Shown piece by piece: positions 48 through 5,854 of a DNA stretch of 5,899 bases (positions are counted from its first letter, which is position 1; every line of letters starts with the position of its first letter). Under the pieces are notes generated by a model. It was given only the letters and a program-made list of their open reading frames with translations, made no database searches and had not been told where the DNA came from. A program made the translations under genes and the position numbers. The stretch covers positions 1 through 5,899 of the forward strand of contig CALZNR010000099.1 in NCBI GenBank assembly GCA_945827565.1, in the 5' to 3' direction. This stretch comes from an uncultured Prevotella sp. (GTDB taxonomy: Bacteria > Bacteroidota > Bacteroidia > Bacteroidales > Bacteroidaceae).

Positions 48-2589
48 GTCGCTCGGTGTGTGGTCGATGTAGTCGCTTGTACAGTTGGTCAAGTTCCATG
101 AACACCCGTTCATCGTTTTCGTCGAGTGCAAAGGCACATTCCATCATCTCCACTGCTTTCTCTTCTTTTCCCTGTTTGTTGAATGTTCCGAGGGCGAGGT
201 TGCGCCACACGGTGGGGAACTGAGGATTGATATCTACAGACAGTTGCCAGTTTTGCATGGCAAGATCGTATTGGCGGGCAGCGTAATATAGGCAGCCGAG
301 CAGGTAGGGTGCGTGGGCATCTTTGTTGTTGGCTCGTTTGGCGGCTTCGAGGGCGATGATGGCCTCAGGGCGGTTGGGGAAACAGTAAGTAAGGTCGGTT
401 TTCATGGCCTCTTCGTAGCGTCCCATGTAGTAATACGTCATGGGTGTAACGGCTCCTTCCTTGATGGCTATCTGCCAAATGCTATGTGCCTCTTCGCGAA
501 GTCCGGCTGCCAGATAGTCAAGAGCCACCTCGTCGTAGTTCTGGTCGCTCTTGCGTAGCATCTGTATCATTTCAGCAAGCACCGTCTCGTCTTGCTCAAT
601 AAGGTATCTCTCGTAGCGGCATCCGTAGTTGAACAAGTCTATCTCCAGCGACTCTTGGATGAGCGAGAGTGCGCTGTCTGTCTGTCCGCTTCTTCGCAGG
701 ATGGCGGCTTTCAAGGCGCGCGCCTTATGGTTATGTCCGTTGTTGATGATGCTGCGGTTTATCTCGTCAAGGGCATCCTCGTAGCGACCTTGTGCAGTGC
801 TTATTTTGGCTGCCTCGAAGTATGCGGCATCTGCCCAGCCCTTGTTCCAAGAGGCTTTCCAAAACAGTTCGTATGCCTCGGAGAGTTTGCCTTGATACTT
901 GAGCGACACGGCAAGATTATAGATAGGTTCGCCGTCGTAGGGGTTGGGGTTACGCTTCTGCGACAGTTTTACAGCTTTGCGCAGGTATTCTTCAGCAAGG
1001 GCAAAGCGCCCCTTTCGGATGTACCACAGTCCCATGGCGTTGAGGCAGCGGATGTCGTTGGGGTCACGTCGCAGTGCCTCTTCGTAGTAGTCGGTGGCGT
1101 GCCATGTGGCATGGCGGTACTGTTCCAGGTGCAAACCGGTGAGATAGAGTTGCTCGTTCGTTTTGGTCTGTTCGGGTAGCAGCGCAGCCTCTGCACTGTC
1201 GGGGATGGGACGTATGTCGTCGCTCTCCTCATGCCATTGCAGTACGGTGCGTGTGCCGTAGTTAAATTTTTTCTGTATCTCAAAGGTCAGCTCATTCCAT
1301 CGTGCTCCCTTGGTGTCAACGGTTTCTGTGAGCACCTTCTCAGGACAGATGGTCAGCGCCTTATTATAATAGGTGGTGCCGTTGTCATTGCACAGAGTGA
1401 TGATTACCTCTTGTTTTGAGGTGGCAAACACCTTGAACTCCACCAAGCCATTGTTCAGCTTGTTGATGTTGAAGATGAGGTCTTTCGAGGCTTCCTTCAC
1501 CACTCCCAGCTCTCTGTAGGGCATAAAATACTGCGTAAACTGCTTCTCTTCGTAAGGCATGAGCCAGGCAAAGTCGGGCTGATTCTCTGTATAAACGCCA
1601 GCCATCAGTTCTATATACGGGCGGAAGCCCTTGCGATCTATATTCCATTGTTCCATTTCTGCGTCTGTCGCCTCGTCGGTGAGGTTGCGATCCCATGCAC
1701 GTCCAAAGTCGCCATTGCCCCAGGTCCACTGCTTCTTGCCTGGCGAAAAGTGGTGACTTGCCACGTGCAACATGCCAGCCTGCGTGTCGTTTTCATAACC
1801 TCCCTCGAAGTTGAAGCGGCTGTTGACCCCCATGTAGCTGGTGGGCACAAAGATATTCTTGTAGTTAGAGATGTCCACACCGGCGGAGTAGTCCATCTTG
1901 TAGTAGGTGCCTGTTGCGATGGGAAAGCTGGACACGGCTCGCTTGCCATGATCGAACACTGCGTTGATATCGGGTGGAAATACGCTCTGATAGGCATCGT
2001 TCACTTCAACGGCGGGGTTGGCCCACCACAGGAACGTCTGTGGCACATCGGTACGATTGTACAGTCTTCCCTTGATTTCCAGGTAGGCGCAGTCGGGGTG
2101 TAGTGTAAAGCCTGCCATCCCCTTTTGGTGAAACATCTTCTCCATCTCGCTCACCCATACGGTCATAGAGCCGTCTGTATTCTCTTCGATACAGGTGTCA
2201 ACTGGCATAAAGGTTGACGGACGATGATGCTGTGGCCAGTTGAATTCGATGCCTCCCGAAATCCACGGACCTGCAAGTCCCACAAGGGCGGGTTTGATCA
2301 CGTGGTTGTAATAAACAAAGTGGCGCTGCTTGATCTTGTCATAAGCCATCTGTATGCGTCCGCCCAGTTCGGGCAGCACCATCACCTTGATGTATTTGTT
2401 CTCCATCCAAATGGCCAGATAATCCTTATCCACCTTCTCGTTGCTCATGGTTTCGATAACGGGATAGGGATAAACCACACCACTTGAACCTTGATAGACT
2501 CTTTTCTCCAAAAACATTGGATTCTTTTCTGGTTTTCCCACCTCGTATGTTGGGATGGTCACCATTTCTCTCCAAACTTTTACCGACAT
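48..2589 (-). CDS. DUF5107 domain + TPR repeat protein, 3'-truncated (first 847 residues)
   Basis: Large, probably cytosolic protein of unknown function; no signal peptide or membrane segment is visible. I translated the minus strand from the ATG at 2589 without interruption to codon 847, where the adapter begins, so the true C-terminus is missing (family members are about 1,100 residues from memory). The start MSVKVWREMVTIPTYE fits the family. Residues about 1-330 form the DUF5107 part, with LPELGGRI (72-79), GGIEFNWPQHHRP (112-124) and WWANPAV (188-194). The LPELGG segment resembles the galactose-mutarotase-like beta-sandwich found in aldose epimerases, which suggests a carbohydrate ligand (inference). 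From about residue 475 the protein becomes a series of TPR helices, with units such as YYEEALRRDPND (from residue 500), RFALAEEYLRKAV and RYEDALDEINRSI. It lies 75 bp downstream of the sugar transporter on the same strand with no promoter box between, so co-transcription is likely. The enzymatic or scaffold role is not established. Confidence 0.93.
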
Positions 2590-2590
2590 T

Positions 2591-2630
2591 GTTGTATGTT
2601 TTGTGTGATTGCTGTATGTTTTACGTGTTA
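2591..2630 (-). repeat. Two-copy 20-bp imperfect tandem repeat just upstream of the DUF5107-TPR start
   Basis: The units 2591-2610 and 2611-2630 match at 15 of 20 positions and share the core TGTATGTTTT (2593-2602 and 2613-2622). On the coding strand this gives two AAAACATACA elements, the second ending just before the ATG at 2589. Bacteroidales commonly use A-rich leaders instead of a Shine-Dalgarno sequence, so the repeat may simply be a duplicated A-rich translation enhancer. The exact 20-bp period would also suit a protein binding site. Function unknown. Confidence 0.5.
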
Positions 2631-2664
2631 GGCTGAACAGTGATGGTAGTGGATGCACTCCATC

Positions 2665-4098
2665 TTACTTCTTTACCAAATCTTTTCCCAATTGTTCAAG
2701 GCTCTTACCCTTGGTTTCAGGCAGGCGTGTCAGGAAGAACATAAAACCACAGCAGCAGACCAAGGAATAAATCAGAAATGTGCCATAAGAGTTCAGTTCC
2801 TTATTTAACAAAGGGAAGGTGTAGGTCAGTGTGGTGGACCCCATCCACAGCGCAAACGTACACGTGGCAACGGCAATGGCACGAACACGATTGGGGAACA
2901 GCTCGGAAATGAGAACCCACGTGCATGGACCCAGTGTCATGGCATAGCAGGCAATGGCCATCAACACAAGGATAATCATGCCAAATCCTGTCAGGTGCAT
3001 GTAGTAGCAGCAACCCAGTGCGGTATAGATGATGCACAAACCTGCTGCACCAATCAGCATCAAGACACGGCGCCCCAACTTATCCACGGTGAATATGGCC
3101 ACAAGGGTAAATATCACGTTGGCCACACCTGTTATCACGATGTTGAACAACACATCGCCCACACTATACCCTGCCGACTGAAATATCTCTTGTGCATAGT
3201 TGAAGATAACGTTCGTGCCACACCACTGCTGAAACACGGCAATCACAATGCCCAACAGTAGTACCTTATGAAATGGCTTGGAAAAGAGCGTATCCAATCC
3301 TGCTTGTTCTTGTGCATCAGTGTTTGCCGTAGCAATGGCCTTGAGCTCACTCTCTGCATAAGTAGTGCCGCCAATCCTTGTCAGTGTGGCACGTGCCTTC
3401 TGCACAGCCACTGAGCATCCTTTGTCATCTATTCTTCCCTTTTCGTTGAGTGCTAATCCCAGTGCCTGCCAGCGTGGACTTTCTGGTATGAAGAATACCA
3501 AAAGCAGAAACATTACAGCTGGTACGGCACCTGCCCAAAACATCCAGCGCCATGCCATCTGCCCATTCCATGAGGCGGCAATCTCGGCAGATGAAAAGCC
3601 ATCGGGAATAGGAGCGGCTATCTGCCAGTTCACTATCTGTGCCGCCAATATACCTATTACGATGGTCATCTGATTCAAACTCACCAGTTTGCCACGAATG
3701 TGTGATGGTGCTACCTCTGCTATGTACATGGGCGAGAGCCCCGATGCAATGCCGATGCCAATGCCTCCGAAGAAGCGGGCCACGAGAAAAGCACCGAAGG
3801 TGGAGAAAGCACCTGTAAGAATGGATGAAACGAGGAAGATAACGGCCGACACCACCAGCAACTTCTTCCTGCCAATTCTGTCAGCCAACCAGCCGCAGCC
3901 ACAGGCACCAATCATACAGCCAATCAGCGCAATTGACATGGCTAATCCCTGATAGGATGGCGACTCAGAGATATTGAAATACAACTCGTAGAATGGTTTG
4001 GCACCGCCAATAACCACCCAGTCATAGCCAAAGAGCAGACCGCCCATTGCCGAGACCAAGCAGATGAAATAAGTAAAGCCTTTGTTGATTCCTTTCAT
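2665..4098 (-). CDS. Sugar porter family MFS transporter (XylE-like H+/monosaccharide symporter)
   Basis: A complete 477-residue inner-membrane protein with the twelve hydrophobic segments and hallmark motifs of the sugar porter family. These are GGLLFGYD (19-26), GWLADRIGRKK (69-79), RFFGGIGIG (108-116) followed by PMYIAEVAPSHIRGKLVSLNQ-type sequence (to 143), PESPR (205-209), QQWCGTN (290-296), DKLGRR (339-344), GPCTWVLISELFPN (390-403) and PETKGKSLEQL (460-470). D26 and R108 align with XylE D27 and R133, the pair tied to proton coupling, so proton symport is more likely than facilitated diffusion. Q290, Q291, N296 and W394 match XylE sugar contacts, but the equivalents of Q168 and Q415 are I150 and L417. 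The substrate is therefore a monosaccharide or related polyol that I cannot name. It is the first gene of a probable operon with the DUF5107-TPR gene and is divergent from the AraC regulator, whose putative sites adjoin its promoter. Confidence 0.96.
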   Translation of the reverse strand: MKGINKGFTYFICLVSAMGGLLFGYDWVVIGGAKPFYELYFNISESPSYQGLAMSIALIGCMIGACGCGWLADRIGRKKLLVVSAVIFLVSSILTGAFSTFGAFLVARFFGGIGIGIASGLSPMYIAEVAPSHIRGKLVSLNQMTIVIGILAAQIVNWQIAAPIPDGFSSAEIAASWNGQMAWRWMFWAGAVPAVMFLLLVFFIPESPRWQALGLALNEKGRIDDKGCSVAVQKARATLTRIGGTTYAESELKAIATANTDAQEQAGLDTLFSKPFHKVLLLGIVIAVFQQWCGTNVIFNYAQEIFQSAGYSVGDVLFNIVITGVANVIFTLVAIFTVDKLGRRVLMLIGAAGLCIIYTALGCCYYMHLTGFGMIILVLMAIACYAMTLGPCTWVLISELFPNRVRAIAVATCTFALWMGSTTLTYTFPLLNKELNSYGTFLIYSLVCCCGFMFFLTRLPETKGKSLEQLGKDLVKK

Positions 4099-4109: not shown

Positions 4110-4123
4110 AGATTGTTTTGCTG

Positions 4124-4131
4124 CAAAGGTA
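4124..4131 (-). promoter_or_regulatory. Candidate -7 box (TACCTTTG) of the transporter operon
   Basis: The minus strand reads TACCTTTG, a full match to the Bacteroidales -7 consensus TAnnTTTG, 25 nt before the ATG at 4098. No TTTG -33 element is present 19-21 nt upstream; that stretch lies inside the direct-repeat array instead. A good -7 box without a -33 box is what one expects of a promoter that needs an activator, here plausibly the adjacent AraC protein (inference). Confidence 0.65.
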
Positions 4132-4190
4132 TGGACTTTTCTTCTATAACTATATGGACTTTTCTTGCAATAATATGGATTATTTTTCTT
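4130..4190. promoter_or_regulatory. Three-copy direct-repeat operator, probable AraC-family binding sites
   Basis: The plus strand carries TATGGACTTTTCTT at 4130-4143, an identical copy at 4153-4166, and the related TATGGATTATTTTTCTT at 4174-4190. Left edges are 23 and 21 bp apart, about two DNA turns, so all copies present the same face of the helix. AraC-family dimers typically bind direct repeats with this spacing. The array occupies the gap between a transporter gene and a divergent AraC gene and just touches the -7 boxes on both sides. That this particular AraC protein binds here is inference. Confidence 0.75.
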
Positions 4191-4197
4191 ACATTTG
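4164..4197 (+). promoter_or_regulatory. Candidate promoter of the AraC-family gene (-7 box TACATTTG)
   Basis: TACATTTG at 4190-4197 matches the Bacteroidales -7 consensus TAnnTTTG. Upstream, CTTG at 4164-4167 is a weak -33 candidate at a 22-nt spacing, one longer than the usual 19-21. The leader to the ATG at 4248 is about 40-45 nt. Its -33 region lies within the second direct repeat and its -7 box abuts the third, so autoregulation of the regulator is likely (inference). Confidence 0.6.
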
Positions 4198-4247: not shown

Positions 4248-5132
4248 ATGATAAAGAAGAAAGACGGATTTATAGGCGAACGCTTCATCGTACTCTCTCC
4301 CATGGTTGTAGAGATGGAGGCGAACGACCCATTGGTCTCTAACCTCTACCTGACTGATATTGGCTACTACCCGAGGGCAACCAACCACTATCGCTGTCGT
4401 CAGCAGGCCATTGACCAATATGTGCTCATCTATTGTGTGGATGGCAGTGGCTGGTATAGGGTGGGAGAGGAGCAATACACCGTTCGAAAGAACCAGTTCT
4501 TCATACTTCCTGCTGGTTGCCCCCATGCTTACGGTGTTGCCCAGGGAAGTGAGTGGACTATCTACTGGATACACTTTCAGGGAGAACTTGCCCATTTCTA
4601 TGCCGAGGGAGCTCAAAAACCACAGGAGATCAATATCTCTACGGTGTCGCGTGTCAGCGAGCGCAATAACATCTTTGAGGAGATTTTCCATACGCTGGAG
4701 CAGAGCCAAAATATAGAAAGTCTGCGCTATGCCTCTTCGTTGTTGCACCATTATCTGGCCTCCATGCGCTATCTGAAACAGTTCAGGCAGGCAAAAAAAA
4801 TAGAAGAAAATGTCAATGTTGTTGAGGCTGCCATTCATTATATGAAAGAGAATGTGGAGCGTCGTGTCACCATTCAGGAAGTCATCAATTACATAGGCTA
4901 TTCTCCCACCCGTTTCCACACCCTGTTCAAAAAACAAACGGGAAGCACACCTCTCAGTTACTTTAACCAGCTGAAGATGCAGTGGGCATGCAAACTGCTG
5001 AGAGAAACGGACATGAAGATGAACCAGATATGCTTCAAAATAGGCATTGAAGATAGTTTGTACTTCTCGCGTCTCTTCTCAAAAAACGTGGGTATGTCAC
5101 CACGTGAGTACAGAAGGAGGCACTCAGACTGA
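4248..5132 (+). CDS. AraC-family transcriptional regulator, cupin sensor domain
   Basis: A complete 294-residue cytosolic DNA-binding protein, typical in length for the family. The N-terminal half carries an AraC-type cupin ligand pocket, visible as YVLIYCVDGSGWYRVG (58-73), the NQFFILPAGCPHAYG segment (82-96) and WTIYWIHFQG (103-112). A helical linker follows. The C-terminus has the two expected helix-turn-helix units, the first at about 207-229 (VTIQEVINYIGYSPTRF) and the second at about 257-280 (MNQICFKIGIEDSLYFSRLF), ending in the signature GMSPREYRRR (282-291). The start at 4248 has no Shine-Dalgarno sequence, but MIKKKDGFIGER fits Bacteroidales relatives. It is divergent from the transporter operon and separated from it by the triple direct repeat, so it probably controls that operon and itself in response to a sugar or derivative. 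The ligand is unknown. Confidence 0.96.
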   Translation: MIKKKDGFIGERFIVLSPMVVEMEANDPLVSNLYLTDIGYYPRATNHYRCRQQAIDQYVLIYCVDGSGWYRVGEEQYTVRKNQFFILPAGCPHAYGVAQGSEWTIYWIHFQGELAHFYAEGAQKPQEINISTVSRVSERNNIFEEIFHTLEQSQNIESLRYASSLLHHYLASMRYLKQFRQAKKIEENVNVVEAAIHYMKENVERRVTIQEVINYIGYSPTRFHTLFKKQTGSTPLSYFNQLKMQWACKLLRETDMKMNQICFKIGIEDSLYFSRLFSKNVGMSPREYRRRHSD

Positions 5133-5254: not shown

Positions 5255-5854
5255 ATGAAATATTTACAATCAATCTTTACCGCAGTTATCAGTGTCTTTT
5301 TCTTCTTGCAGGTTGCTGCACAGGATGTTTACACCAAGGCGCCAGCCGACAAGAAAACAGAGAAGAAGGCTGCCAAATGGGTAAAAAAGGGAACGTGGCG
5401 ACAAGGCTTTACTGCCGCAGCACCTCATGCCTCTGTAAATCTTAGTGAGTTCTATACCCAATATCAGCGCAACACCGCTCAGTGGCAAGCCATGTTCCGA
5501 TGGTTGGCTACCCATGATTTGCTTGCCATTCCCGCAGGAAAGCATCCCATTGAGGGTACCTCTTTGGTGGTCAGTGTAGAGGACAGCGAGAATGGGCCAC
5601 TTGCCAAGCGTCGCAGTGAAAGCCACTATCATCACATTGATTTTCAATACGTGGTGAGAGGCACCGAGCGTTTTGGAATTATAGAACACAACAGTTCCAA
5701 ACCCAACAGCAAGTATAAACCAGATGTGATGCACTATGATTACGACCTGTCCAAGGCTGTCTTTCATGATTCCACTCCCGATGCCTTTTTTCTATTCTTT
5801 CCCGACGATTGGCATATCGCCAAGGTGCAGACAGAAAAGGCAGACCAGCATATC
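5255..5854 (+). CDS. Exported YhcH/YjgK/YiaL (EbgC-like) family protein, 3'-truncated (first 200 residues)
   Basis: Member of the YhcH/YjgK/YiaL family, which includes EbgC and the sialate anomerase YhcH/NanQ; known roles involve sugar anomer handling or helping a glycosidase. Residues 1-23 form a signal peptide, with a basic start, a hydrophobic core and an AAQ end, so the protein is exported to the periplasm. There is no lipobox cysteine. The family core is clear: HPIEGTSLVVSVEDSENG (97-114), ESHYHHIDFQYVVRGTERFGI (122-142) and FFLFFPDDWHIAKVQ (178-192). E122, H124 and H187 are plausible metal or active-site residues. Codon 200 ends exactly where the adapter begins. The apparent stop at 5873-5875 and the last six residues LSLIHI come from adapter, and I estimate 15-25 real residues are missing. 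The gene follows the AraC gene on the same strand but has its own promoter. The substrate is unknown. Confidence 0.92.

Follow-up and report, generated by a model that had tools for sequence, protein, structure and literature searches.

The AraC light switch of Escherichia coli involves DNA looping, with the distal half-site some 200 bp away. The pocket residues through which AraC contacts arabinose include P8, T24, R38, H80, Y82, H93 and W95. PMC4760080 describes activating and repressing use of the E. coli araI and O1 sites, and the existence of araO1L and araO1R. In Bacteroides and Prevotella, the bacterial group of the locus described here, control of sugar-use operons has been reported for BtAraR (BT0354; PMC4666351). 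BtAraR is an NrtR-family (Nudix-related) protein that uses semipalindromic sites, whereas the regulator considered here belongs to the AraC family. Bacteroides promoters carry TAnnTTTG at -7 (PMC7366714).

Here, we analyze a three-copy direct repeat that is the predicted operator of an adjacent AraC-type regulator. It lies in a 5,899-nucleotide stretch of DNA from an uncultured Prevotella sp., hereafter the window, which is one entire contig (G000:C99) of a source genome that is 69% complete. In the open-access literature, with few subscription journals covered, we found no description of such an operator in this bacterial group, and the open-access literature likewise yielded no publications on a Prevotella AraC with MFS and TPR proteins. 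A search on DUF5107 returned nothing relevant, only work on marine stramenopiles, and nothing useful was found in the literature on AraC half-sites in general or in the accessible part of a review of hemicellulase gene regulation (PMC10766802).

Results

The locus and its relatives

The genes of the window are as follows.

50-2589, minus strand: DUF5107-TPR protein (PF17128, 4.3e-49), presumably from the second gene of the transporter operon; its 3′ end is lost at the contig end
2665-4098, minus strand: MFS sugar porter (SP family, XylE-like), the predicted target (PF00083, 7.1e-106)
4248-5132, plus strand: AraC/XylS-type regulator of 294 aa, with AraC_binding and two-HTH domains (PF02311, 1.4e-22; PF12833, 6.1e-20)
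5255-5854, plus strand: YhcH/DUF386 protein, downstream of the regulator gene

The predicted fold of the regulator is plain from Pfam. PF02311 marks an N-terminal AraC-like ligand-binding domain; the C-terminal two-helix-turn-helix domain exceeds the cut-off for PF12833, also matches PF00165, and can be aligned with the DNA-binding domain of E. coli AraC (2k9s). Against the AraC equivalog NF007860 (NCBIfam), the protein scores 118.3 bits, below the cut-off of 208, and it is identical to E. coli AraC at 68 of 264 aligned positions. All 59 aligned rows retain R38, H80, Y82 and W95 of E. coli AraC, and 51 retain P8, while T24 is replaced by Y in 58 of the 59 and H93 by I in 58. By its sequence, the regulator is likely a sugar sensor of a specificity other than that of AraC. 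The porter scores 340.7 bits against TIGR00879, above the cut-off of 237.8, and falls below the cut-off of the XylE equivalog (365.6 versus 608). The DUF5107 gene comes after the MFS gene in related loci as well (for example L007, L009, L143, L148 and L152). The N-terminal stretch of the YhcH/DUF386 protein resembles a signal peptide.

Both contig ends (1-49 and 5855-5899) carry apparent untrimmed adapter, presumably Nextera. The genome contains 282 copies of its 19-nt core, and the first 100 listed lie near contig ends. The residues of the end ORFs closest to the contig ends are therefore artefacts.

Relatives of the regulator were collected as 18 loci from named genome contigs, from same-genus whole genomes (20 of 150 at an E-value limit of 1e-60; 44 of 398 at 1e-112) and from family-level ones (58 of 399 with regulator relatives at 1e-80). 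In the 1e-112 genus search, only 30 matches with loci were used, and 15 without loci were left out. After removal of 6 duplicates from 118 loci, 112 remained, of which 59 have a divergent MFS gene; L103-L153 and L175-L183 were left out of the counts of orthologous gaps. Relative to the window, L007 has a regulator that is 75% identical, a DUF5107 protein that is 82% identical and a porter (2492-3817 of that locus) that is just 56% identical; the corresponding values for L009 are 62, 85 and 82%. From these identities, the porter may have been swapped beneath the same operator. The regulator ortholog at L074 (G315) contains one in-frame TAG stop and is perhaps a pseudogene.

Three half-sites and their conservation

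The preliminary description had claimed two perfect 14-bp copies and one variant at 23- and 21-bp intervals, all on one face of the helix. The copies are as described: TATGGACTTTTCTT is found perfectly at 4130-4143 and 4153-4166, and the variant TATGGATTATTTTT at 4174-4187, with start-to-start spacings of 23 and 21 bp. Between porter and regulator lies a gap of 149 bp, and an exact direct repeat of at least 14 nt arose in this gap in 1 of 2000 dinucleotide-preserving shuffles. The claim about helical phase holds only in part. At 10.5 bp per turn, a spacing of 21 bp is two turns, and one of 23 bp overshoots this by about 0.2 turn; the copy at 4130 is therefore not exactly on the same face. As 17-mers, the predicted half-sites are:

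4130-4146, minus strand: half-site 1 (extra copy), TAGAAGAAAAGTCCATA, 23 bp from site 2
4153-4169, minus strand: half-site 2 (I2-like partner), TGCAAGAAAAGTCCATA, 21 bp from site 3
4174-4190, minus strand: half-site 3 (I1-like, strong, distal to the transporter promoter), AAGAAAAATAATCCATA, the top match of the ortholog matrix, with a position conserved in orthologs

The same half-site is conserved in the gaps of orthologous loci. A de novo motif search of 46 orthologous gaps, with the window excluded, returned gATGGActATtTTACt, the half-site of the window, in its three best runs; a fourth de novo motif was read as porter coding sequence. This search and the shuffle null described below were run on an earlier locus set (46 and 47 loci, respectively). 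The strong-site matrix was likewise built from that earlier set, restricted to rows whose strong site scored 9 of 11 or better; this gave 45 rows, the window not included, and dropped L043. In leave-one-out scans over both strands of the gap and its flanks, the called strong site was the best match in 43 of 45 loci. On its porter side, orthologs carry a weaker partner, ATRGA. Scored as ATRGAY (5 or 6 of 6), the partner lies 21 bp away in 34 of 47 divergent loci and 22 bp away in 5 of 47; in loci with a spacing of 22 rather than 21, the strong site has usually shifted and the partner has stayed in place. In L066 and L056, an additional half-site (22.4 and 6.0 bits) lies 22 bp from the called strong site in the direction of araC, and by their sequence the called site would then be the partner, 22 nt from a -7-like box.

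When both strands of the window were scanned with the ortholog-trained matrix (window excluded), site 3 ranked first (13.9 bits) and site 1 second (13.1 bits). Site 2 ranked only seventh (4.8 bits); with the partner matrix it scored 9.7, versus an ortholog median of 10.0. By these scores, site 2 is a predicted weak-partner site of the typical kind, and site 1 a predicted half-site of the strong type. Recognition by an AraC-family protein, which had been suggested from the repeat, is well supported by the conserved half-site; the TCCATA core, its direction and the 21-bp tandem spacing are also common to E. coli AraC sites. DNA looping, also put forward at that stage, gains no support, because outside sites 1 and 3 nothing in the window exceeds 6.2 bits. 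Four positions (4891, 1881, 3030 and 4551) score 5.4-6.2 bits, above the 4.8 bits of site 2, and a weak distant looping site is possible on this measure.

Geometry relative to the predicted promoters

A sigma-70 promoter scan gave 1 match versus 0.8 expected and was rejected as unsuited to this phylum. With the Bacteroides consensus TAnnTTTG, two -7 boxes are predicted:

4124-4131, minus strand: predicted -7 box TACCTTTG of the transporter operon, which fits the consensus and whose distance from the operator is fixed in orthologs
4190-4197, plus strand: predicted -7 box TACATTTG of the araC-type gene, a consensus match directly after site 3

The proximal edge of site 2 is 21 bp from the transporter box, at a predicted position of about -34; the transporter transcript is predicted to begin near 4119. 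The last TA of site 1 (TCCATA) is the TA of this same box. The araC box follows the A of the site 3 ATGGA by 15 nt, a distance that is variable in orthologs.

A composite of the form box, 22 nt, ATRGA, 21 or 22 bp, ATGGA is present in 42 of the 59 divergent loci. Two others have 21 nt with a 22-bp pair, 1 has another geometry, and at the thresholds used the composite is absent from 14. In loci without a divergent MFS gene, it precedes araC in only 12 of 53, 9 of them in the main geometry. Xylanibacter ruminicola and relatives (L010-L014) have a GH35, GH2 or GH30 enzyme gene divergent from araC, in the place of the porter; the composite is present in L011-L014 and not in L010. Among 940 mononucleotide-shuffled gaps, there were 2 composites and none of the main geometry; the real counterpart, the first 47 loci, contains 33 with the composite, 31 of them in the main geometry. 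The repeats could in principle reflect A/T-rich composition, or belong to another regulator, given the five further and weaker AraC-type matches in the window's genome. Shuffled gaps fail to yield the composite, and the composite tracks genomes with orthologs of the regulator, a comparison that is partly circular (see below). On this evidence, we consider both ideas together highly improbable.

The two promoters differ in how the pair is placed. The strong site stands 43 or 44 nt from the transporter -7 box in 47 of 57 loci (no box was found in 8, and 2 have other distances). To the araC -7 box, distances are scattered: 44-47 nt in 17 of 57, a loose cluster, 14-15 nt in 6, and many other distances elsewhere, with no araC box found in 6. 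A distance fixed on the porter side and scattered on the araC side means that the pair is tuned to the porter promoter. This bears directly on the earlier proposal that the operator toggles between the two divergent genes, with one dimer moving between sites 1+2 and sites 2+3 and so choosing between transporter and araC expression. The arrangement in the window has what such a scheme calls for, namely three half-sites with a common middle copy, site 1 overlapping the transporter -7 box and site 3 abutting that of araC. The araC side, however, lacks the spacing constraint seen on the transporter side, and a good third copy is missing in 39 of 42 composite loci. A toggle is not favoured by these data, and we regard it as improbable.

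The overlap of site 1 with one predicted -7 box, and the contact of site 3 with the other, might instead be read as repression only, with the regulator blocking both promoters until an effector releases it. In 42 of 59 loci, however, the transporter -7 box stays uncovered: the pair stops 22 nt upstream of it, at the place that araI2 has at pBAD. Pure repression therefore seems quite improbable to us.

The third copy

The expectation that the repeats recur in orthologous gaps proved correct for sites 2 and 3, which are kept as a pair, and largely incorrect for the third copy. Only 3 of 42 composite loci (the window, L041 and L069) have a half-site scoring 8 of 10 or more at the place of site 1, versus 0.12 expected from spacer shuffles. 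Without the window, there are 2 of 41 loci, and 0.8% of shuffled sets give at least as many; L041 was already known as an example when this test was run, and the shuffled sets include the spacer of the window. In L041 and L069, whose regulators are 53% and 55% identical to that of the window, the third half-site lies exactly at -23. At 7 of 10, there are 5 loci versus 0.8 expected; at 6 of 10, there are 7 versus 3.5 expected (5.2% of shuffled sets), and the excess is not clear. Site 1 is absent in L007, the nearest ortholog read (75% identical regulator). Across 399 genomes of the family, the fused-site pattern gives 8 matches at up to 2 mismatches (1 in the control), and 0 mismatches only in the window. 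The third copy thus seems, from these counts, to be a minority feature that recurs.

Such a distribution leaves considerable room for a neutral origin, in which a small local duplication placed a copy of site 2 onto the -7 box; this would be compatible with an activator at sites 2 and 3. The 14-bp identity between sites 1 and 2 is what a recent duplication would leave behind, and most composite loci lack site 1. The good half-sites at exactly -23 in L041 and L069 argue the other way. We give the neutral origin a little less than an even chance.

Composite sites away from araC

The composite, -7 box included, was sought in whole genomes. At up to 2 mismatches, it occurs in 27 of 40 ortholog-bearing genomes (chosen from 77, and spanning six genera) versus 2 of 37 ortholog-free genomes (all of one genus, their status being set by the E-value limits of the ortholog searches). 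These correspond to 38 places (2 for a reversed-pattern control) and 2 places (2 for the control), respectively. At up to 1 mismatch, the counts are 24 of 40 versus 0 of 37. One caveat to this comparison is that it is partly circular, because the motif was learned beside araC and in many of the same genomes.

Composite places away from araC are free of that circularity. By coordinates, 23 of the 38 places lie beside an araC start and 15 elsewhere. Ten of these 15 were read (three in G210 and two in G228 were left out), and all ten have a reading frame in the predicted direction. Four are MFS-DUF5107 pairs, named from N-terminal sequences. For these operons, araC is still in the neighbourhood in G533 and G445, about 10 kb off in G182, and on another contig in G123. 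In G533 (L147, 147-1225), the porter is split into two frames (92 and 263 aa), which may reflect a broken gene or a sequencing error. The remaining places precede GH35 and GH2 genes (L142), a GH2 gene followed by a GH3-like gene (L145), a phosphodiesterase/sulfatase-like gene (L146), an NPCBM protein gene (L149) and a SASA protein gene (L150; L151 likewise, by resemblance). At L150, the mechanical start of the frame overlaps the site, so that the true start is probably further in. As judged from these predicted products, the targets suggest plant or host glycans, with no single sugar fixed.

A search of the source genome of the window for the pair alone, with no -7 box required, gave 7 matches at up to 2 mismatches, versus 3 for the control, and revealed no further targets; the window site alone matched at 1 mismatch. 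Further targets could have been missed, as the genome is 69% complete.

Discussion

Sites 2 and 3 are very probably a conserved AraC-type activator operator for the promoter of the transporter-DUF5107 operon. We propose that the adjacent AraC-type protein binds this pair as a dimer, and that its effector would be a sugar, in keeping with the retention of R38, H80, Y82 and W95. With sugar bound, the dimer would contact RNA polymerase at about -34 and activate the porter-DUF5107 operon, analogous to the action of AraC on araI1-I2 at araBAD. Site 3 abuts the predicted -7 box of araC, so that a dimer bound there would probably hold down araC expression as well.

The role of site 1 is less clear. 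A dimer on sites 1 and 2, 23 bp apart, would cover the -7 box, and the transporter promoter might be shut or damped at high levels of the regulator; we hold this role as a promoter block with much lower confidence than the activator operator. It could also be imagined that the locus is a loop-free light switch contained in 60 bp, in which the middle half-site is shared, an effector-bound dimer on sites 2 and 3 activates, and an effector-free dimer on sites 1 and 2 shuts the promoter. The fused site seems to recur in distant relatives. We think such a switch rather unlikely. If true, a half-site fused to the promoter would replace the distal O2 loop of E. coli, and the locus in any case raises the question of whether a half-site added to the -7 box could do the work of a DNA loop.

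For an AraC-type regulator of Prevotella-like gut and rumen bacteria, the activator reading provides a concrete conserved operator and promoter geometry, derived from sequence alone. It also names genes for study: the sugar porter, DUF5107, and the GH35 and GH2 enzymes.

How closely does this operator resemble that of E. coli? As reference, we used the araB-araC gap of E. coli K-12, with stretches that we take to be I1, I2, O1 and the -10 element. At the level of sequence, the likeness is modest. The araO1 stretch AGAAAAGTCCACA is close to AGAAAAGTCCATA of the window: it agrees at 13 of 17 positions in sites 1 and 2, and nowhere else in the window at more than 12. The half-sites of araO1 are TCTATA and TCCACA, 21 bp apart, and ATAGA, the reverse of the araO1 TCTAT, is the weak partner in many orthologs; unlike the window pair, araO1 lies between araI1 and araC. 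For araI1, none of the three sites exceeds 11 of 17, and other parts of the window reach 12. Since 17-mer identity is modest, and for araI1 no better than at chance places, the case rests on geometry and conservation.

In geometry, the agreement is close. As in araI1-I2 at pBAD, the window has two direct-repeat half-sites about 21 bp apart (sites 2 and 3), and the proximal one stands at a fixed distance, next to -35/-33 of the predicted activated promoter. From the end of the proximal half-site to the -10 or -7 element, there are 20 bp for E. coli araI2 and 21 bp for site 2. The stronger half-site contains TCCATA, and the half-sites of the window, read towards the porter, finish with this core as araI1 does; the direction towards the activated gene is the same, and the regulator gene is divergent from its target in both systems. 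Other features differ. The TAGC end of the E. coli half-site is just partly kept, the promoter is of the Bacteroides TAnnTTTG type, unlike pBAD, and the window has an additional half-site placed on the -7 box, whereas E. coli relies on a distal O2 with a loop (PMC4760080). Taken together, these comparisons suggest that the araI layout of E. coli has been preserved to within 1 bp despite a different promoter consensus, and that the system is likely a variant of that layout rather than a new kind.
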